From positions 1 to 61,057 of IMG/VR virus record IMGVR_UViG_3300046724_000355: a DNA stretch of 61,057 bases. One strand, given 5' to 3'. Of this stretch, positions 32,048 to 58,805 are shown in pieces. A program made the translations under genes and the position numbers. Each line of letters opens with the position of its first letter. Position 1 is the stretch's first letter. Below the pieces are notes generated by a model. That model worked only from the letters and a program-made list of their open reading frames with translations. It ran no database searches and had not been told where the DNA came from. Origin of the DNA: a virus.

Positions 32048-32707
32048 GTGGTGATGCCTTCCTTCGCCGCTGTTGGTTCGACGTTGACCGGGTCGAACTC
32101 CACGACGGCGGCCGTTCCGGTGCCGGCGGGGGTGCTGCCCGATCACGTGGTGTTCGTGTTTCTCTATGTCGAGACCACGCAGGCGGTCACACCCGCCTCC
32201 GGCTTCGCGGAATGTCCGTCGTCCCCGGTGGTCGTCACCGGCGGTAATGACAGTCACGACCTGCACATCTTCTGGAAGCGGGCGACGGCGGCGGACAGCG
32301 GCACGTATACCTTCACGATTGCGTCCGGCCTCGGCTGGCGGATGGGGGTCGCGGTGCGCTTCATCGGCTGCGTGCGGTCGGGTACACCCGTCGAGGCGAC
32401 CACCAGCGCCATCGACATCACCGGAACCGCGACCCACAGCCCGGCCGTGTCCTCGACATCGCTGGGTGTGGACCGTGAGTGGTTGTGGGTGGCCTCCAAC
32501 TATGGCGGCGCCAGTTCGACGCCGCCATCCGGTGTAACCGAGCGCGTGGACGTGACCAGCAGCACGTCCATCACGGCCGGTACCAAGGATCAGCCTTTCG
32601 TCGGCTCGTCGGGATCACTGTCGAATACCTGGACGACCGGCGCCGGGTCGGCTGCGTGGCTGGGCGCGTTGAAGCCGGAGAGCCCGGGGCAGTTCTTCAG
32701 AATGTGA
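32048..32707 (+). CDS. Putative minor tail protein, last gene of late operon
   Basis: Possible starts are GTG 32048, GTG 32051 and ATG 32054; the GGCGGGG upstream best fits 32048. The roughly 219-residue product is beta-rich with an Ig-like pattern (VVFVFLYVETTQAV, YTFTIASGLGWRMGVAVRFI). Similar proteins close tail operons in related phages. It is followed at once by a strong terminator that ends the late region. Confidence 0.7.
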   Translation: MVMPSFAAVGSTLTGSNSTTAAVPVPAGVLPDHVVFVFLYVETTQAVTPASGFAECPSSPVVVTGGNDSHDLHIFWKRATAADSGTYTFTIASGLGWRMGVAVRFIGCVRSGTPVEATTSAIDITGTATHSPAVSSTSLGVDREWLWVASNYGGASSTPPSGVTERVDVTSSTSITAGTKDQPFVGSSGSLSNTWTTGAGSAAWLGALKPESPGQFFRM

Positions 32708-32715
32708 TGAAACGC

Positions 32716-32756
32716 AAAGCCGCCTCGGATCTTTCGGTCCGGGGCGGCTTTTTCGC
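32716..32756. terminator. Strong terminator ending the late operon, probably bidirectional
   Basis: A 13-bp stem (two G-T pairs) with a TTTC loop runs from GCCGCC near 32719 to GGCGGC near 32748, followed by TTTTT on the plus strand and preceded by AAA. It lies between convergent genes, so it can stop transcription from both sides. Confidence 0.9.
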
Positions 32757-32765
32757 TGTCTAGGG

Positions 32766-33116
32766 TCAGCCGGGGATCTGTGCGCCGATTGCGCTGCCTG
32801 CGCCTGCGCCGATGCCCGCGCCGATGACTCCACCGGCGACGGCGCCGATTCCGACGCCGATGATCGCGCCGGCCGGGCACACGGGCAGGGTGACGGCGCA
32901 CGCCAGGACGCCGCCGGCGACGCCGCCGATCACGACGCCCGCGACGGTGCCGACCGCGGTGCCGATCTGCTCCCCGGCGAGGGCTTGGGTTTGTCCTGCG
33001 GCGACGGGGGTGACGGGCTGCGGCACTATGTCGGGGGTCGCGGCGGAGGCGAGACCTGCGCCTGCTCCGGTGAGGGTGGCGGCGGTGATGAGGGTGGCGG
33101 CGATTCTTCGGAACAT
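32766..33116 (-). CDS. Secreted glycine-zipper protein
   Basis: The 116-residue leftward gene starts with a signal peptide (MFRRIAATLITAATLTGAGA, cleavage likely after ASAA). A Gly/Ala-rich region with repeated GxxxG spacing follows (GTAVGTVAGVVIGGVAGGVL). Glycine-zipper proteins insert into or coat membranes. An AGGAGA ribosome-binding site is present. Being leftward and after the late terminator, it is probably made in the lysogen or early. A role in superinfection exclusion is possible but unproven. Confidence 0.75.
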   Translation of the reverse strand: MFRRIAATLITAATLTGAGAGLASAATPDIVPQPVTPVAAGQTQALAGEQIGTAVGTVAGVVIGGVAGGVLACAVTLPVCPAGAIIGVGIGAVAGGVIGAGIGAGAGSAIGAQIPG

Positions 33117-33139
33117 CGGTGTCTCCTGGCTGGATTCGG

Positions 33140-33628
33140 TTAGAACGCTAATTGGCGTGTTGTTCCCGGTTGGGACATGCCGGTGCTGTACCAGAGGCTG
33201 ATCAGTTGCGCGTCCCCGTATTGGCCGGTGACGTCACGGTTGACGACGACGTCGATCCAGAGTGTTTGCTTCTGGCCCGGTTTCAGGATGTCGGTGTGGC
33301 CGGTGTTGGTGCCGACCACCTCGTTGCCTACCGAGTATTGGACTTCGGGCTGTGCGACGCCAATGAAGTTCATCGACGTGTTCTCCACCAGTACTTCGCT
33401 TCCCGTGACTCCGCGTGGTTCCTGCGCGATGCCTTGAACCAGGGTGATCGTGAACGGTCCGACGTTGTACTTGTTCTTGTGGGTGTCGGGGACCGGCTGG
33501 ATGGGTGCCGCGGCGGTGGTCGTCGGCTGGTGCACGGTGGTCGGCTGGCTGGCGGAGTTGCTGGAGCAACCGGCGGTGGTAGCGAGGGCTGCAGCGACTG
33601 CGACACTCGCGAGAATGCTGGAACGCAT
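33140..33628 (-). CDS. Lipoprotein with Ig-like (DUF4352-type) domain
   Basis: Start chosen at MRSSILASVAVAAALATTAGC, a signal peptide with a lipobox ending in Cys 21; a GAGG site lies upstream. After a Thr/Pro-rich linker comes an all-beta domain (YNVGPFTITLVQGIA, SEVLVENTSMNFIGV, KPGQKQTLWIDVVV) like the DUF4352 group. The protein would be lipid-anchored on the outer face of the membrane. Phage-encoded lipoproteins in lysogens often block superinfection. The specific role is not known. Confidence 0.78.
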   Translation of the reverse strand: MRSSILASVAVAAALATTAGCSSNSASQPTTVHQPTTTAAAPIQPVPDTHKNKYNVGPFTITLVQGIAQEPRGVTGSEVLVENTSMNFIGVAQPEVQYSVGNEVVGTNTGHTDILKPGQKQTLWIDVVVNRDVTGQYGDAQLISLWYSTGMSQPGTTRQLAF

Positions 33629-33679
33629 GAAGCGGTACCTCAAGTTGAAATCGGCTGATGTCCTGAGCAAACCAGCAGC

Positions 33680-33720
33680 GTGCCCCGACCGGTAGCCGGT
33701 CGGGGCACGTTTCGCTGTTT
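33680..33720. terminator. 13-bp hairpin between leftward genes
   Basis: A perfect stem GTGCCCCGACCGG / CCGGTCGGGGCAC with a 3-base loop (33680-33708). T-rich DNA follows on the plus side (GTTTCGCTGTTT). On the minus strand the T-run is weak. It separates the lipoprotein gene from the genes to its right and could terminate either way. Confidence 0.7.
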
Positions 33721-33795
33721 ATGGCACAGATTGACCATCGACTACCCACCGGATGCCCCGGCGGGAACCGGTCGCGGTCAGTGACCGCAATGAGA

Positions 33796-34041
33796 TCAGC
33801 CCTGTTTGCTCTGTCCGATCACAGAGGGGCTGTAACCGGAGGTCCGCTCGCGGCCACGCTGAGGAAGTATGCCCGGTTCACCCAGCTTATCGGCCGCCTG
33901 ACGCAGCAGTACGGCGCTGGGATGCTCGCCACCGAGTATCGCGCCAAGCTGGTGGCGCATCGCGTTCAGTTGATCGCGGTAGTCGGCGAGCAATTCCGGT
34001 GCCAGCACCACTGTTTCGGGCTGGGTTTCGTTGTCGGGCAC
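33796..34041 (-). CDS. Hypothetical protein (81 aa)
   Basis: GTG start after AAGGA. The product has a helical middle (APELLADYRDQLNAMRHQLG) and a polar end. Nothing recognisable. It sits last in the leftward run before the 33680 hairpin. Confidence 0.6.
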   Translation of the reverse strand: MPDNETQPETVVLAPELLADYRDQLNAMRHQLGAILGGEHPSAVLLRQAADKLGEPGILPQRGRERTSGYSPSVIGQSKQG

Positions 34042-34062
34042 GAGGCTGTCCTTCCCTGTCTG

Positions 34063-34521
34063 CTAAGTCCGGCGAGCACACTCGCTCTCCGGAACATCGA
34101 TGTTGCCGGACACGTCGGAGTACTCGAATTCCTTGCCTTCTCCGGACTTGCCGGTGATGGACACGAGAGCGTGCCATGTGCCAGCAAAGCAGTCCGCATG
34201 ACCACCATAGTTCGCCCAGGGTGCCGGAATCTGGTCGTCGGCGGGACCAGTCCCCATCGTTTCCCAGTTCTGCGAACCCAGCGGGCGGAAGGTCAGAAAC
34301 AAGGTGACGTGATGTTCGAGTGGCGTGACATCACACTCCGCCCGGCCCCGCACATTGATCAGCGGAGGCTTCACGTCGGGGACACCGAGGTTGGTCGTGA
34401 ACGACCAACCGCATTGGTAACGCTCCGGTTCCGCGTGCGCCATCGGGGTGGCGATAACCACCCCGGTGGCGGCGACGCCCAGAGCGGCAGCGGTGGTGCG
34501 GGCAAGTAGGTTGGCGCGCAT
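34063..34521 (-). CDS. Secreted protein with four cysteines
   Basis: A clear signal peptide (MRANLLARTTAAALGVAATG, cleaved after AHA) precedes a roughly 123-residue beta-rich mature domain with four Cys (CGWSFTTN, RAECDVTP, HADCFAGT, ESECARRT), enough for two disulfides. The ribosome-binding site is GAGGTGAAA. It resembles small exported actinobacterial proteins. It is a candidate lysogen-expressed envelope or exclusion factor; no family is named. Confidence 0.72.
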   Translation of the reverse strand: MRANLLARTTAAALGVAATGVVIATPMAHAEPERYQCGWSFTTNLGVPDVKPPLINVRGRAECDVTPLEHHVTLFLTFRPLGSQNWETMGTGPADDQIPAPWANYGGHADCFAGTWHALVSITGKSGEGKEFEYSDVSGNIDVPESECARRT

Positions 34522-34559
34522 CGGGTTTCACCTCATGTAGTTGTTATTCTCTTGTGCAG

Positions 34560-34841
34560 TCAGAGCGGCTTTCGTGTTTGGCCGGACATCCAGGCGTCGG
34601 CTTCGCGTTGGGCATCCCACACGCTTGCCGCCGACTTCTCGCGGAGAACGGTCTTCTGGTCGTCGGCGTAGATGGTCCATGCGCAGCCGTTGGCGTTGGT
34701 GGCGCGGATTTTCGCGCGGCCGTCGTACTTCGACAGGGACCACTTGAGGTTGTCGCCTTCGACCAGCCAACCGTCGGTAGCGTCGTCGGGCCGGATTGGG
34801 CCGTAGGGCACCACAGGCTGCCACATCATCGGTTCGGCCAT
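34560..34841 (-). CDS. Hypothetical protein (93 aa)
   Basis: ATG at 34841 follows GAGG. It begins MAEPMMWQPVVPYGPIRPDD and continues with a small alpha/beta domain (AKIRATNANGCAWTIYADDQ, then a helical SVWDAQREADAWM end). It overlaps the upstream gene by 16 bases. Small proteins of similar build occur in actinophage accessory regions; function unknown. Confidence 0.65.
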   Translation of the reverse strand: MAEPMMWQPVVPYGPIRPDDATDGWLVEGDNLKWSLSKYDGRAKIRATNANGCAWTIYADDQKTVLREKSAASVWDAQREADAWMSGQTRKPL

Positions 34842-35110
34842 GGCACCTCGCCGGAGCCGTGGTGGACGGTCGCCGGTAAGGCAATCGGTTGGCTGGCGTC
34901 GATCATGCCGAGTCGAACCAACTCGCCCCACGCGACGGTCATCGCGACGCACTCGCCGATGAGGCAGCTCTTGTGGAGTTCCATCGCCTTGTATGGATGG
35001 TCTTGTGCCCATTCGGCATTTCTGCACGCGAGGATCTTGTGTAGCTCGATGACGGTGGCGTCCGCGGGAACCTCGATGGGGTCGCCCGTTTCGGACGGCT
35101 CGATCCCCAT
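34826..35110 (-). CDS. Hypothetical protein (94 aa)
   Basis: ATG at 35110 overlaps the stop of the upstream gene (ATGA). The product is a mixed alpha/beta protein with a Cys-containing middle (KILACRNAEWAQDHPYKAME) and a C-terminal VHHGSGEVPW. No family recognised. It is part of the coupled leftward set. Confidence 0.6.
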   Translation of the reverse strand: MGIEPSETGDPIEVPADATVIELHKILACRNAEWAQDHPYKAMELHKSCLIGECVAMTVAWGELVRLGMIDASQPIALPATVHHGSGEVPWPNR

Positions 35111-35283
35111 CACCTCACCGCCGAGACACAGTCCAGCGCAGCGATGAGCTGGAGGCACTTCTCATCGTGCGCGCCGTGGTCGTCGAGGACGGCCCGCGCG
35201 TGATCCAGAGATTCGAAGGGCGGCGGGGTGTCGGTGCAGAACCTGTGGCGTTGTCGCCACAGGTCCCGCTTGGCCGCGTTCAC
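35110..35283 (-). CDS. Small hypothetical protein (57 aa)
   Basis: The GTG overlaps the stop of the upstream gene (GTGA) and its own stop overlaps the next start (ATGA). The product is helical and His/Asp-rich (FESLDHARAVLDDHGAHDEK). The tight coupling on both sides supports expression. Confidence 0.55.
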   Translation of the reverse strand: MNAAKRDLWRQRHRFCTDTPPPFESLDHARAVLDDHGAHDEKCLQLIAALDCVSAVR

Positions 35284-35588
35284 CGCTTCCTCGGCGTGAT
35301 GACACCAGCGTCTATCAGCGTGTCGATCGCGGCGGCTTTGCGTGCGCATTCGCTCTTGGGGCACCCGCTGTGTTGCTGCCAAGCGGCGTGCGCTTCGAGG
35401 CGGCTGAACGGGTGGAGGGGCGCGTTGTGGTTGGTTGCGTCCAGCCATGCTGTGGCGTCGTTGGGGGAATTGGGCATAAGTCGGTGCCTGGCAGCAGATT
35501 TGGGCGCGCGCAGTGGCAGCAGATACCAACACGCGGTCGCCATTATGAGGGATGCGGTCAGGCCGATCAACGCAAAGTTCGTCGACAT
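35280..35588 (-). CDS. Membrane-anchored small protein, first of leftward cassette
   Basis: ATG at 35588 follows GAGG. Residues about 5-25 are a membrane anchor (NFALIGLTASLIMATACWYL). The rest ends with a compact motif, HSGCPKSECARKAAAIDTLI, seen in many small actinophage proteins (two Cys and an RKxAA helix). The promoter must lie in 35589-35756. It heads the leftward run of small genes. Confidence 0.65.
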   Translation of the reverse strand: MSTNFALIGLTASLIMATACWYLLPLRAPKSAARHRLMPNSPNDATAWLDATNHNAPLHPFSRLEAHAAWQQHSGCPKSECARKAAAIDTLIDAGVITPRKR

Positions 35589-35843: not shown

Positions 35844-37037
35844 ATGACCGACGAAACGATCGGCGATCGCATCAAGCGCTTCCGCGGCAGAGCCTTCACC
35901 CAGGCGCAGCTCGCAGAGGCTTCCGGCGTATCGAAAACGGTGATCTTTCAACTAGAGCAGAACCGCAAGACCAGCGCATCCCTGCCGACGCTGCGCGCCA
36001 TCGCCAAGTCCCTCGACATCGATGTCGCCGAGCTCGTCGGCAAGCGGGCAGGCATCCCGACCGGCGACACCGAAGCCGGTGTTGTCGCGATCCGCAAAGC
36101 GCTCTCGTCGGTCGATGACCTTATCGGCGACATCGACGAGGTTGAACCGCTCACGCTGGAGACGGCGCAACGCGAGGTCACCTACGCGTGGGGTTCGTAC
36201 TGGAGCGGCCGGTACAAGAAGCTGGTCTCGATTCTGCCGCCGGGTATCACCCGGCTGCGGGCGACAACGCACAGCGTCTCGACAGACGAGGCGCCGCGTG
36301 CGCACGAACTGTATGCGTGGCTGTTGTGGACGTCGGCGTGCACGCTCGTGCACCTCGGCCAGCCCGATCCCGCATGGATGGCGATACGCCAGGCCCTCGC
36401 CGCGGCCCAGAAAGGCAACGACCAGTTCCTCGAGGCGACGCTGCGCGGCAGTGTCGGATGGCAGCTGCTGGTACAGGGCCGCTACGAGGAGTCGCGGCGC
36501 GTCGTGCTGAAGGCGGCCGAGGACATCGAGCCTCACGGGGACGTGTCGCAGCAGCATCTCTCCGTGTATGGGAGTCTGCTGCTGCAGGGCGCTACCGCCG
36601 CCGGCCGTGGATTGCAGATCTCGGAAGCGCGCGCTCTCGCCGACGAAGCGGGTGCTGTGGCGTCGCGATTGCCGGGTGACACCAATTGGTATGAATGCAA
36701 TTTCGGGCCGTCTCAGGTAGCGATGCAGCGCACGGACATCGAGGTGTCGAACGAGCGGTATCCGGAGGCGCTGGAGGTCGCGAAGACGATGCCCAAGCGC
36801 GGGATCGGCCTGACTCCGGTGTCGCGGGCGCGGCATCTGCTGGATCAGGCTGCGGCGGCGGTTCGGATGGGTAGAACGCAGATGGCTTTGGACATGCTTC
36901 TCACTGCCGAGCAGGTGGGTGGCGAGGAGTGGGCCCGCTATCAAACGCTGCTGAAGACGGTGGTGGCCGAGCTGCTGGAGAGTGACCGGCAGAGTTCTCT
37001 GCGGGAATTCGCTCAACGTCTCAACGTGACTGCGTAA
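35844..37037 (+). CDS. XRE-family regulator with TPR-like C-terminus
   Basis: Start chosen at MTDETIGDRIKRFRGRAFTQ, which opens the helix-turn-helix (about residues 4-65: TQAQLAEASGVSKTVIFQLE). The remaining 330 or so residues are helical tandem repeats with TPR-like spacing. The architecture (397 residues) is that of actinobacterial XRE-TPR regulators, some of which sense peptides or small signals. It is transcribed away from the leftward cassette, across the palindrome at 35757, and closes with its own terminator. Confidence 0.8.
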   Translation: MTDETIGDRIKRFRGRAFTQAQLAEASGVSKTVIFQLEQNRKTSASLPTLRAIAKSLDIDVAELVGKRAGIPTGDTEAGVVAIRKALSSVDDLIGDIDEVEPLTLETAQREVTYAWGSYWSGRYKKLVSILPPGITRLRATTHSVSTDEAPRAHELYAWLLWTSACTLVHLGQPDPAWMAIRQALAAAQKGNDQFLEATLRGSVGWQLLVQGRYEESRRVVLKAAEDIEPHGDVSQQHLSVYGSLLLQGATAAGRGLQISEARALADEAGAVASRLPGDTNWYECNFGPSQVAMQRTDIEVSNERYPEALEVAKTMPKRGIGLTPVSRARHLLDQAAAAVRMGRTQMALDMLLTAEQVGGEEWARYQTLLKTVVAELLESDRQSSLREFAQRLNVTA

Positions 37038-37519: not shown

Positions 37520-37939
37520 GTGAGCGAGTGGACATCCGATGATCACTTGGACCGAATTTGCCCCACAGCAGGCGATCTCGCCGTGCCCGGCACCAGTATC
37601 TCGGTATGCGAGCCGAGTGGGGACGTGGTGTTGGGCGATGGATGGGCAACAATCGGAACTTTGATCGAAACCGACGGCCCCATCGACGTGATTCCCTGCC
37701 TCGGGCTCACGGCAACGCAAATTGAACGGCTGCTCGCTGCGGCCGTTCAAGTGTGGGTTTTCGGCCGGATCTGTCTGACTGGCTGGTACTTCCAGTTCGG
37801 GATCGGCTGGATTGTGGATGTGAAGATGCGTTATCCGGCGTTCTCCGGTCGCCGGCGCGACGCTGCGCGCGCAATGCTCTCGGCCGAGGGGGTTTGGCCC
37901 TTGGTGTTCGCTGGGTCGAGTGACCCGTCGGTGAGGTAG
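37520..37939 (+). CDS. Hypothetical protein convergent with the repressor gene
   Basis: GTG after AAAGGTGG with 8-base spacing. The 139 residues show alternating hydrophobic strands (WVFGRICLTGWYFQFGIGWI) and a basic C-terminus. No family recognised. The last 109 bases overlap, tail to tail, the 3' end of the leftward repressor gene, so each transcript is antisense to the other. Confidence 0.6.
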   Translation: MSEWTSDDHLDRICPTAGDLAVPGTSISVCEPSGDVVLGDGWATIGTLIETDGPIDVIPCLGLTATQIERLLAAAVQVWVFGRICLTGWYFQFGIGWIVDVKMRYPAFSGRRRDAARAMLSAEGVWPLVFAGSSDPSVR

Positions 37940-38205
37940 ACGTCCTCGGTGGTGGCGACCTGAACCTTCACCCAAGCGGTATGCAGGACGTCGTCAGGGC
38001 CAACGTCGAGAGCGACGGCCATTGCCGCCAGTTGATCTACATAGATCGGTGTCCGGGCCCCCAGTAGGGACGAGAGGGTCGCCTTAGGAATCTTGGACTC
38101 CCTGCTCAGGTCTACCTGTTTCCATTTCCGCAGGCCGAGGAGGGCCCGGATCTCGGCAGCAACGGCTTCAGAGAGTCGCCCTGTCTCGCGTGCGTTCGTA
38201 GCCAT
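37831..38205 (-). CDS. Putative immunity repressor (XRE helix-turn-helix)
   Basis: The 124-residue protein has an XRE-type DNA-binding domain at about 13-75 (KQVDLSRESKIPKATLSSLL, then VALDVGPDDVL). A short C-terminal tail follows, with no self-cleaving peptidase domain, so induction is not by the LexA-type route. No Shine-Dalgarno lies before the ATG, and a promoter 7 bases upstream suggests a leaderless mRNA. Divergent from a Cro-like gene with shared operators, it has the layout of the CI role. Confidence 0.78.
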   Translation of the reverse strand: MATNARETGRLSEAVAAEIRALLGLRKWKQVDLSRESKIPKATLSSLLGARTPIYVDQLAAMAVALDVGPDDVLHTAWVKVQVATTEDVYLTDGSLDPANTKGQTPSAESIARAASRRRPENAG

Positions 38206-38241: not shown

Positions 38242-38287
38242 TGGGTGACATGGGGTCCGCCTCATGACCGCCTGGTCTGCAAACCTC

Positions 38288-38316
38288 TTGCAACGATCTC
38301 CAAATGGAGATATAGT
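38288..38316 (+). promoter_or_regulatory. Cro-like gene promoter (leaderless start)
   Basis: TTGCAA at 38288-38293, a 17-base spacer, and TATAGT at 38311-38316. The predicted start point is the A of the ATG at 38323, so no leader and no Shine-Dalgarno. The perfect operator lies inside the spacer. Confidence 0.75.
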
Positions 38317-38330
38317 CTCTACATGGAGAC
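38296..38330. promoter_or_regulatory. Two switch operators flanking the -10 of the Cro-like promoter
   Basis: ATCTCCAAATGGAGAT (38296-38311) is a perfect palindrome around AA. GTCTCTACATGGAGAC (38315-38330) is the same site with one mismatch and covers the start codon. A third weaker copy is in the repressor promoter (38218-38233). The spacing lets one repressor block both promoters to different degrees. Confidence 0.72.
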
Positions 38331-38565
38331 AAGTTGGACCTGGTCAGAACGGGTCACAGCAAGAATCCGAAGGGCAATCTCCGAATCCGGGTTCACCGAA
38401 CAGTACGTCGGAATCCACGCAGGCGTACCGAATTCGACATTGAGCAACTGCCTGAACGGATTCCGCGCATTCAACCTTAAGCAAGTCGAGCGCATCGCCG
38501 ACGTCCTCGGCATCTCGCCGGACGAGTTCATCGATAGCCGCAGCCACGAAGACATCGCGTCATGA
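38323..38565 (+). CDS. Cro-like regulator (XRE helix-turn-helix)
   Basis: An 80-residue protein that is almost all DNA-binding domain: AISESGFTEQYVGIHAGVPN, then STLSNCLNG and ADVLGISPDEFI. The ATG coincides with the expected transcription start. Divergent from the repressor and first gene of the long rightward early operon, it fits the Cro role. An upstream in-frame ATG at 38245 would include the promoter and is not used. Confidence 0.78.
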   Translation: METSWTWSERVTARIRRAISESGFTEQYVGIHAGVPNSTLSNCLNGFRAFNLKQVERIADVLGISPDEFIDSRSHEDIAS

Positions 38566-43959: not shown

Positions 43960-44132
43960 CCCAACCAATCTGCCCCGGCTGCTGGGCCATCCTGCACCTC
44001 GGCCGGCCACCTGAACGGATCGCGGGTGCCGACGAAGAAGACTGCTGCCTCTGCGGCGACCCCACCGTGTCCGGCCTCACCGTTCACGTCGATCCCACCA
44101 CCGTGCCGTACCCGACCAAGGAGGACGCATGA
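43956..44132 (+). CDS. Small zinc-ribbon-like protein (58 aa)
   Basis: Cys pairs CPGC near the start and CCLCGD in the middle suggest one zinc site. The tail is Val/Pro-rich. ATGA overlap with the LysB gene. Function unknown. Confidence 0.55.
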   Translation: MTQPICPGCWAILHLGRPPERIAGADEEDCCLCGDPTVSGLTVHVDPTTVPYPTKEDA

Positions 44133-44884
44133 TCACAGTCGTTCATCTCCGCGGCACCATGGAACCGCTTACCCAGGGCGGCATCTCGATGACGCTCCTC
44201 GGAGCCCTCGACCCAGCGAAGTTCGCGTACGTTCTCGTTCGATATCCGGCCGACTATGGCGATCCGATCCCCTTCGGCGAATCGAACCTCATCGGCCGCA
44301 CCAACGCCATCAAGGAAATCGCCGCCGCCCCGGGGCCGGTGATGCTCACCGGCTACTCGGCTGGAAGCTTCATTGCCGGAGACCTGGCCATGGACATCGT
44401 GAACGGAATAGTCGACGGCATCGACCCGAGCAAGCTGGTCGCGGTCGCACTGCTCGCGGACCCGAAACGCCCGGAAGGTGCCGGGGTCCCGCAGATCTAC
44501 ACGCCCGGCGGCTACGGCATCGCCGGACAACGCGACATCACCGGCGTCCCAGTGTTTTGGGGCACGGCGAGCATGGACCCGATCGCCGCATTGGATGGCT
44601 CGAATCCGTTGCGGACGGTGGCTGACCTGTCGGTATTCGCGTCGATCGATCCGGACCGGTGGGAGACGTGGGCGCTGTCTATTCAGGCGACCGTCGTGAA
44701 CCGGTCGCTGCAACCGGCGTGGAAGTTCTGGCTGCAGCCGTGGATGTGGGTCGACGCCGCGCACGCCCTCGATCTGTACATCAGGTTGGGCGGGCACACC
44801 GATGACTACCTGCGCCAGGGAATCTGCACGGCGCTCGCCGAGGCAGTGACCGCGGCTGTCAGCGTCGAAGGCGGTGCGGCATGA
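44129..44884 (+). CDS. lysB: LysB mycolylarabinogalactan esterase
   Basis: This 251-residue alpha/beta hydrolase has the nucleophile motif TGYSAGS (S77), an acid likely at D150 (D111 is an alternative) and the His in GGHTDDYL (H223). This matches phage LysB, which cuts mycolic acids from arabinogalactan and finishes lysis of mycolate bacteria. Oddly, it lies in the early operon 20 kb from the lysin-holin genes. It has no signal peptide, as is normal for LysB. Confidence 0.85.
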   Translation: MITVVHLRGTMEPLTQGGISMTLLGALDPAKFAYVLVRYPADYGDPIPFGESNLIGRTNAIKEIAAAPGPVMLTGYSAGSFIAGDLAMDIVNGIVDGIDPSKLVAVALLADPKRPEGAGVPQIYTPGGYGIAGQRDITGVPVFWGTASMDPIAALDGSNPLRTVADLSVFASIDPDRWETWALSIQATVVNRSLQPAWKFWLQPWMWVDAAHALDLYIRLGGHTDDYLRQGICTALAEAVTAAVSVEGGAA

Positions 44885-51496: not shown

Positions 51497-51685
51497 GTGT
51501 CGACCCAGGCATACCTCACCAGAGATCAAGTCGCGAAGCGGCTCGGACTCGCACCCAAGACACTCGCCAATTGGGCGTCCGAGGGTAAGGGGCCGAAATT
51601 CATTCGGTTCGGACGTAAACGCGGGCGCGTCCGATACCCAGCCGAAGAATTCGAAGCGTGGGACAAGACACACACCGAAACCTAA
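51497..51685 (+). CDS. xis: Excisionase / recombination directionality factor (HTH)
   Basis: GTG start after AAGGAGA. The 62 residues are a MerR-like helix-turn-helix (YLTRDQVAKRLGLAPKTLAN, then KFIRFGRKRGRVRYPAEEFE), the usual fold of actinophage excisionases. It sits 18 bases upstream of the integrase on the same strand. It would bend attP/attL-attR DNA and favour excision. Confidence 0.8.
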   Translation: MSTQAYLTRDQVAKRLGLAPKTLANWASEGKGPKFIRFGRKRGRVRYPAEEFEAWDKTHTET

Positions 51686-51703
51686 CAACACCAAGGGGAA
51701 TGG

Positions 51704-52990
51704 ATGTCGAGCGAGCGATTGGTGCCGGGCGGCCGGCCGAAGAAGCATCTCCTGGAACCCGTCAAAGGGCCCGACGGCATCTGGCACCTCGACCGGATCC
51801 GTCACAGAACCCTCAGTGGTGCATACACGCGAACCAGTGCGAGCGGCCGGACGAAGAAGGAGTGTCTGGCGCAGTGGGAGGACAGGTTCGAGAAGAACCG
51901 GCACAAGGGGTCGGTCAGGACCACGCGCTCCGACGTCGCGAGAATACGATTCACCGCCGACGACAAGATGATCGACGTCTTCGAACACTTCATCAAGATG
52001 TGTAAGAAGAAGGTCGAGCAAGGAAAGATCAAAGCCCAGACCGTCGACGGATACAGCCGCGCCATATTCCCATGCCATGGCAAGAACTCCTCCGGGGACG
52101 CAATAAAACTGGAGAAGGAGCTCGGACACCTGACGGTCGGCGAGGTGGGGGACACGGCGTTCCTGTGTGACTACCTTGACGACATTTACGCACTGAAGAA
52201 GGGCACCGCGAGTGTCCACTATCAGATCTTGACGCAGGTCTTTCGGATGCTGACCCGGATAGGGCCGTTCAAATACGATCCGATGGCGCCGGTGTCGAAC
52301 CCGTACGTCTCCGGTGGGACGCAACGAGCGTTGAAGCCGGCCGAGCGTGACGCCCTGTTCGATCTGTTCTGCACTCGAGCCCCGCACACGAAGTACCGCC
52401 GCATCCTGTTCCTGCTGCTGCTGGGCACCGGCATGCGGATCGGCGAAGTGCTGGGCTTGCGCTGGACCGACGTAGACCTCCGCGAGGGGAGCGAGTGCGC
52501 CGTGATCCACGTGTGCGGCACCATCGTGCAAGCGGCGTCCGGCGGCAAGGCGCACAGGCAGGACAAGCGCAAGAACAACGGGCAGTTCTACTTCCTGACC
52601 CTTCCCCTGTGGCTCACGGTGGAGCTTCGGGAGTGGCGATCCCAGGCCGGCCCGGTCGATGACAGCGACCACGTCTTGGTGACGATGCGCAAACGATTCC
52701 TGTCGATTGCCGCGGCCGAGGGATTGTTGAGGCGGATCGTGGGCGGAACATCGATGGACTGGGTGCAACTCAGCAACTTCCGGGATACTGCCGCGACCCA
52801 CGTCAAGGGAAAGACCGGGGATGCGTCGCGGGCGAGTGCCCAGTTGGGGCATTCGGAGGCGTCTACGATGGCGATCGTCCACTACATCGACAAGGACGGC
52901 TACCAGCATCCGGCGGTGGACAATTCGGCTGCTATGGAATCGTTGAAGCCGTCAAAACTGGAGCAGAACTGGAATTTCAGTGCAGCCTAG
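51704..52990 (+). CDS. int: Tyrosine integrase
   Basis: The 428-residue protein has an N-terminal arm-binding region, a SAM-like core-binding domain (about 80-200), and a catalytic domain with R245 (GTGMRIGEVLGLRW), R360 (LSNFRDTAATHV), H383 (LGHSEAST) and Y394 (HYIDKDG). The first His of the usual HxxR box is Ser here. It integrates the phage at a host attB and excises it together with the excisionase. The attP site probably lies just downstream. Confidence 0.92.
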   Translation: MSSERLVPGGRPKKHLLEPVKGPDGIWHLDRIRHRTLSGAYTRTSASGRTKKECLAQWEDRFEKNRHKGSVRTTRSDVARIRFTADDKMIDVFEHFIKMCKKKVEQGKIKAQTVDGYSRAIFPCHGKNSSGDAIKLEKELGHLTVGEVGDTAFLCDYLDDIYALKKGTASVHYQILTQVFRMLTRIGPFKYDPMAPVSNPYVSGGTQRALKPAERDALFDLFCTRAPHTKYRRILFLLLLGTGMRIGEVLGLRWTDVDLREGSECAVIHVCGTIVQAASGGKAHRQDKRKNNGQFYFLTLPLWLTVELREWRSQAGPVDDSDHVLVTMRKRFLSIAAAEGLLRRIVGGTSMDWVQLSNFRDTAATHVKGKTGDASRASAQLGHSEASTMAIVHYIDKDGYQHPAVDNSAAMESLKPSKLEQNWNFSAA

Positions 52991-58564: not shown

Positions 58565-58724
58565 ACGCCTGGACGCGTTGATCGTCCGTTTTACCCAGTT
58601 TCTGGTTGCACACTCCAAGATCGGCCCAGACTTCGCGAGCTGGGAGCCCTACCCGGCGGGGCTGCAAAACAAGGCCGGGATCAGGAGATGTCGCACAGTT
58701 CGGCCTAGTGCGCTGCCCTGCTAA
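58557..58724 (+). CDS. Small protein whose frame runs into the tRNA gene (55 aa)
   Basis: GTG overlapping the previous stop. The first 40 residues look like a normal helical protein (VIKRLDALIVRFTQFLVAHS). The last residues and the TAA stop fall inside the tRNA-Ser gene. Either the tRNA was inserted within this gene or the frame is not used. Confidence 0.35.
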   Translation: MIKRLDALIVRFTQFLVAHSKIGPDFASWEPYPAGLQNKAGIRRCRTVRPSALPC

Positions 58725-58770
58725 GGCGGTAGGCGGTCACGTCTCGCGGGTTCGAATCCCGCCATCTCCG
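58684..58770 (+). tRNA. tRNA-Ser (anticodon GCT)
   Basis: Cloverleaf read by eye: acceptor GGAGATG (58684-58690) pairs with CATCTCC (58763-58769); D-arm GCAC/GTGC; anticodon stem CTGCC/GGCGG with loop CTGCTAA, anticodon GCT at 58720-58722; a long variable arm with GGCG/CGTC; T-arm GCGGGTTCGAATCCCGC. The long variable arm is typical of tRNA-Ser. CCA is not encoded. It reads AGC/AGU. Confidence 0.9.
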
Positions 58771-58805
58771 CGTTCAACCCGTTTCACCCAGCCGAGGAGT
58801 AACCC

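Follow-up and report, generated by a model that had tools for sequence, protein, structure and literature searches.

A probable lysogenic-conversion cassette, apparently assembled from Nocardia gene families, in a temperate phage

The virus record IMGVR_UViG_3300046724_000355, analysed over its full 61,057 nucleotides and called the window below, is a temperate phage with siphophage gene order. Eight leftward genes (g1 to g8, 32766-35588) lie between its late tail genes and its lysogeny module, beside a divergently transcribed regulator gene of the XRE type with a TPR-like C-terminus (XRE-TPR, 35844..37037, + strand; phrog_5823, E 1.1e-85). We consider that these genes are probably a lysogenic-conversion ("moron") cassette that brings a regulator of its own and occupies a variable slot in a temperate Nocardia phage. 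Judging from homology, the cassette seems to consist mostly of gene families of Nocardia chromosomes (g1, the g4-g3 pair, g5-g8 and XRE-TPR) together with one phage-specific lipoprotein, g2. Its novelty is in its content: an unnamed secreted four-cysteine family and its linked partner, common to Nocardia chromosomes and phages and apparently under XRE-TPR. The tested defining features of a moron cassette were found, because the genes form a separate unit on the opposite strand, convergent with the late operon and with a terminator in between, the content varies at a conserved place (six other loci), and chromosomal homologues of g1, g3, g4 and XRE-TPR occur outside prophages. The original prediction of lysogenic-conversion cargo is supported indirectly, by convergence, own regulator, host families and variable slot, while PADLOC gave no direct support to the superinfection exclusion that it also proposed; it overlooked the origin from the host, the pairing of g4 with g3 and the membership of the XRE-TPR regulator in the unit.

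The eight genes, already noted in that prediction, are confirmed by open reading frames (ORFs), ribosome-binding sites, codon usage and homologues, gene calls and signal predictions being made with in-house scripts. Codon usage alone gave weak scores for g7 and g8, which we accept as real because homologues exist (E 8.8e-16 for g7 in L100 and 2e-11 for g8 in L103; compared loci are numbered with the prefix L). The predicted signal peptide and glycine zipper of g1 (32766..33116, - strand, 116 amino acids) are present, the signal peptide ending in ASA with the zipper after it, and the gene has a Shine-Dalgarno sequence and an ATG start. The secreted four-cysteine protein is g4 (34063..34521, - strand, 152 amino acids), with a signal peptide ending in AHA, and the membrane-anchored protein is g8, with a single N-terminal hydrophobic segment. 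The Ig-like lipoprotein, g2 (33140..33628, - strand, 162 amino acids), has a lipobox, TTAGC, and a predicted Ig-like fold; its start had to be moved from 33670 to the ATG at 33628. A single run of a heuristic predictor over all 99 called genes found a signal peptide or a lipobox in 3/8 cassette genes against 1/91 elsewhere (Fisher p = 0.0014); adding plain hydrophobic N-termini gave 4/8 versus 19/91, which is not significant (p = 0.08).

The late-operon terminator is an inverted repeat forming a hairpin with a T tail (32716..32751, + strand; RNA fold -36.2 kcal/mol, z -3.8) between the tail gene at 32048-32707 and g1, so that late read-through would yield antisense RNA only. A perfect 14-bp hairpin (33679..33709, not assigned to a strand; z -4.8, no T tail) stands between g3 and g2 and is possibly the end of a g8-g3 transcript. 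Because this hairpin separates them, g8-g3 and g2-g1 are probably two leftward transcription units. A scan for consensus promoters and terminators stayed at chance level, and no promoter rose above it.

The host-type character of the larger unit is clearest in the g4-g3 pair. Members of the g4 family occur in 50 of 150 Nocardia genomes, with several paralogues to a genome, and their four cysteines (37, 63, 111 and 148 in g4) are invariant across 14 aligned sequences. A relative of g3 (33796..34041, - strand; a small cytosolic protein of 81 amino acids, family A7, 63% identical in L057) lies directly downstream of the g4 homologue in 16 of the 17 scored Nocardia loci, with a gap of 10-15 bases; the gap in the window is 21 bases. 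When the g4 alignment was compared with Pfam, NCBIfam and PDB, only chance-level matches and no relative were obtained. AlphaFold, here and for g2 working from two-sequence alignments, proposed an all-beta model of g4 at low confidence (predicted local distance difference test, pLDDT, 66), with which Foldseek found no trustworthy match. Homology of g4 to a secreted protein of a related prophage (L008_6919-7281) was rejected, the alignment being unconvincing. The element L060/L075, a 110-kb virus record, has a g4 homologue without g3. The integrase of this record is a relative of the window's, and the record also encodes a TROVE/Ro60-like protein (L075 2241-3824, corresponding to L060 3978-5561; PF05731, E 2.9e-15).

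A secreted, cysteine-stabilised protein with several paralogues per genome and a tightly linked small partner could be an effector acting on competing bacteria or the environment, with g3 protecting or folding it, and the genomic setting is comparable in Mycobacterium abscessus prophages with toxin-immunity cassettes (PMC8092301). We hold this to be very improbable: neither a toxin domain nor a WXG motif was seen, g3 looks cytosolic, and in L060/L075 the g4 homologue has no g3 beside it.

The remaining genes of the larger unit have relatives in the same chromosomal neighbourhoods. A homologue of g5 (34560..34841, - strand, 93 amino acids) is found at L055_6451-7026 (E 4.6e-16) within an operon of the order g8, methyltransferase, g4, g3, so that this locus joins relatives of g5 and g8 to the pair. 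A homologue of g6 (34826..35110, - strand, 94 amino acids) lies upstream of g4-g3 at L070_7495-7701 (E 5.5e-11), and L073 has a g8 relative in the g4-g3 operon. The product of g8 (35280..35588, - strand, 102 amino acids) joins its hydrophobic anchor to an HxxC-x4-CxxK domain, a motif carried by several of its relatives and retained in part by g6; homologues occur in L055, L056, L073, L101, L102 and L103, and L008 has a similar motif. Probably a distant paralogue of g6 and g8, g7 (35110..35283, - strand, 57 amino acids) has homologues divergent from XRE-TPR in L100 (8.8e-16), L103 (2.3e-10) and L104 (5.8e-4).

At a threshold of E <= 1e-20, 98 of the 150 Nocardia genomes have a match to the regulator; the best matches are mostly full-length at 53-63% identity, and the closest two reach 74% and 78%. 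Distant homologues of XRE-TPR stand divergent from the g4-g3 operon at two loci, L055 and L074, an arrangement as in the window. XRE-TPR is also divergent from g8- or g7-like genes in L102-L104, and in L100, at a prophage end, a 78% identical XRE-TPR is divergent from the g7 homologue. Conserved clusters of an XRE gene with genes for proteins of about 170 and about 110 amino acids were also seen divergent from g4-g3 on four Nocardia chromosomes (L061, L063, L064 and L069); by eye, their XRE protein is DUF5753-like. Since these XRE clusters lie divergent from g4-g3, they suggest that the operon can couple to different XRE regulators. It is possible, although we state this with considerable reserve, that XRE-TPR, the HxxC...C small proteins and g4-g3 make up an undescribed Nocardia-wide secreted-protein system captured by temperate phages; if so, lysogens would acquire one more, independently controlled copy.

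The linkage of an XRE gene to small proteins, conserved in host and phage, also fits a regulatory or signalling module, in which XRE-TPR would sense a product of the divergent operon, as in RRNPP or XRE-DUF397 systems, and affect lysogeny or host development. XRE and DUF397 proteins occur together in some of the slots described below (L076 and L100), and XRE-DUF397 pairs of Streptomyces regulate antibiotic production and differentiation (PMC6262351, PMC10364602). We consider such a module unlikely: PDB profile matches of XRE-TPR are essentially confined to the helix-turn-helix (HTH) domain, no gene for a short exported pro-peptide was found, and a 152-residue protein of disulphide type is large for a signal peptide. 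As to the domains of an RRNPP-type regulator, XRE-TPR has an evident HTH and a weak TPR match (E 0.013). The module is not an XRE-DUF397 pair, because neither DUF5753 nor DUF397 was recognised in the regulator or in any of g1-g8.

The smaller unit combines two exported products of different distribution. Full-length relatives of g1, at 55-73% identity, were found in 17/150 Nocardia genomes, in ordinary chromosomal surroundings at the 12 inspected loci, four of which adjoin the same sugar-transporter genes; the match of g1 to Pfam Gly-zipper_Omp was under the cut-off (E 0.027). For g2, Nocardia genomes gave weak N-terminal matches and nothing more, a scan of GTDB genomes for the lipoprotein gave no match, and the clear relative, 60% identical and with the lipobox TLAGC, occupies the same place in the prophage L002/L008, whose record at its far end shares 93% identity over 2 kb with a Nocardia chromosome. 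On these sequence comparisons, g2 is phage-restricted. AlphaFold models g2 as an Ig-like beta sandwich whose core is fair (mostly 72-93 pLDDT); the Foldseek hits, to domains of the FnIII/MSP type, were weak, and no E value fell below 1e-3. Searching phages by tblastn with g2 and g4 found no match, and neither did IMG/VR scans that used g1, g4 and XRE as single query sequences.

Lipoproteins acting as exclusion factors include Ltp of Streptococcus phage TP-J34 and Cor of coliphages phi80 and N15. Like these, g2 is a small phage lipoprotein with a recognisable lipobox, encoded near lysogeny genes; unlike them, it has a predicted Ig-like fold and no sequence relation to either was found, and its exclusion role is putative. 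Phage restriction, position and this analogy make g2 the best candidate of the cassette for excluding a second phage, which is plausible and the most natural specific guess. A stronger proposal is that the cassette is dedicated to superinfection exclusion, g2, perhaps with g1, being seated on the membrane's outer face and blocking DNA entry of related phages in the manner of Ltp and Cor. It would explain why g2, alone in the cassette without a host relative, is conserved at the same position in another Nocardia prophage and why L010 has an unrelated lipoprotein there, and for Cutibacterium the proposal has been made that an Ltp-like phage protein gives resistance to superinfection (PMC11480721). 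On balance we find the stronger proposal rather unlikely: g2 had no match of substance in Pfam, PHROGs or PADLOC, its family has two members only, and the host-type genes g1 and g3-g8 would be left unexplained. PADLOC models matched nothing in the cassette except the helix-turn-helix domains of the XRE-TPR regulator.

The placement of the cassette recurs in other phages. A cassette following the tail genes and convergent with the late operon is present in six further prophages or virus contigs of Nocardia; these loci were selected because their late or lysis genes, a g4 or a regulator resembled those here, which makes the comparison a survey rather than a random sampling. The slot of L008 holds a lipoprotein, a Clp_N-like protein, a secreted protein of 120 amino acids, small proteins and an XRE, and that of L010 an unrelated lipoprotein, a Methyltransf_19 protein and an XRE. 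A DUF397 protein (PF04149), a g7 homologue and an XRE-TPR are found in L100, a 229-residue membrane protein in L110, secreted and membrane proteins in L111, and in L076 an XRE, two DUF397-like proteins (by sequence) and a g4 remnant. Exported slot proteins are clear in L008, L010, L110 and L111 and truncated in L076.

Several observations weigh against a lysogenic-conversion cassette. From the late genes of L100 to its XRE gene, nothing exported is encoded, and two late-gene relatives, L112 and L113, lack a cassette there, their tail genes leading on to the terminase. None of the homologues of g1-g8 has a known function. The integrase (51704-52990) sits 15 kb away, therefore the cassette need not occupy a prophage end, unlike those of L008 and L010. 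The slot being empty in L112 and L113, and many small actinophage genes having no known role, the genes might belong to the early lytic set or be passengers that do nothing in the lysogen; we judge this improbable, as an own regulator, conserved cysteines and a gene pair imply a selected function, at least in the host.

For the lysogenic-conversion cassette we propose the following working. The main block, g8-g3 with the divergent XRE-TPR, would be a phage-borne version of a cluster found on Nocardia chromosomes, where an XRE gene adjoins an operon that encodes small proteins of the cytosol and the membrane and ends in a secreted four-cysteine protein and its small partner. The second block, probably transcribed separately, would add the phage-restricted Ig-like lipoprotein g2 and the host-type glycine-zipper protein g1. 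The conserved divergent pair suggests that XRE-TPR controls the g8-g3 operon, and strand, own regulator and position suggest that the cassette is on in the lysogen. Its products would reach the envelope or the medium, g2 being lipid-anchored and g1 and g4 exported, and may change the cell surface or work extracellularly. Published RNA-seq found operons in a similar position, some of them leftward, to be expressed in lysogens of Sbash and several M. abscessus prophages (PMC6426596, PMC8092301); an exception among the latter, prophiGD21-1, expresses its repressor only (PMC8092301).

The rest of the window agrees with a temperate siphophage. It encodes a terminase (phrog_9, E 2.7e-126), a tape measure protein, an endolysin and tail genes in siphophage layout, as well as a tyrosine integrase and an excisionase (51497-52990). 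A CI-like HTH gene (37831..38205, - strand; phrog_4583, E 2e-11) and a second HTH gene (38245-38565; phrog_4583, E 1.1e-10) are probably the lysis-lysogeny switch. A search for attP downstream of the integrase did not locate it and gave no convincing attB; a tRNA-Ser (GCT) is encoded at 58684-58771, about 5.7 kb past the integrase. A rightward ORF for 139 amino acids without a family match (37520-37939, + strand) overlaps the 3' end of the CI-like gene, which may be genuine or may mean that one end was wrongly called. The closest terminases, of mycobacteriophages such as Bask21, are at most about 59% identical. The host is very likely Nocardia, because the 28 genome loci of an endolysin scan were all from Nocardia, Aldersonia or Antrihabitans, except one metagenome-assembled genome of Bacilli, and the g4 family was confined to Nocardia in a 401-genome family sample.

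Two genes outside the cassette differ in position from their counterparts. An alpha/beta hydrolase in the early region (44129-44884; Abhydrolase_6, E 0.001), a candidate lysin B or esterase, looks displaced, because similar proteins stand among the late genes of L100 (5138-5896, E 5.8e-16) and L111 (11648-12382). The phrog_19005 protein at 1662-2435 precedes the terminase in the window and lies beside lysis genes in prophage L111 (16657-17445, E 1e-66).

Temperate Nocardia phages are little sampled: no INPHARED phage matched window positions 20000-44000 at megablast level, the cassette region included, and our literature search on Nocardia phage cargo found nothing directly relevant. The cassette offers a short list of genes by which such phages could modify the secretome or the surface of Nocardia, which counts human pathogens among its species, and it reveals an unnamed secreted family with a tightly linked partner, common to host and phage, whose function is directly testable.

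Among known systems, the toxin-immunity cassettes of M. abscessus prophages (PMC8092301) share with this one a leftward orientation against mostly rightward genes, host-like cargo and exported proteins; they are lysogenically expressed, and several of their immunity proteins are lipoproteins, as is g2. They differ in adjoining attL or attR and in carrying WXG-100 polymorphic toxins. The central defence genes of Sbash, Butters and the Gordonia phage CarolAnn (PMC6426596, PMC7542560, PMC6426606) are likewise variable genes between structural genes and immunity module, and are expressed in lysogens; unlike the cassette, they pair a membrane protein of four transmembrane segments with a cytosolic one. 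The Streptomyces XRE-DUF397 systems (Scr1/Scr2, WhiJ-type; PMC6262351, PMC10364602) also place an XRE beside small proteins and have many actinobacterial chromosomal copies, whereas the XRE of the present cassette, in which there is no DUF397, is TPR-like at its C-terminus and a secreted four-cysteine protein is encoded in the operon.

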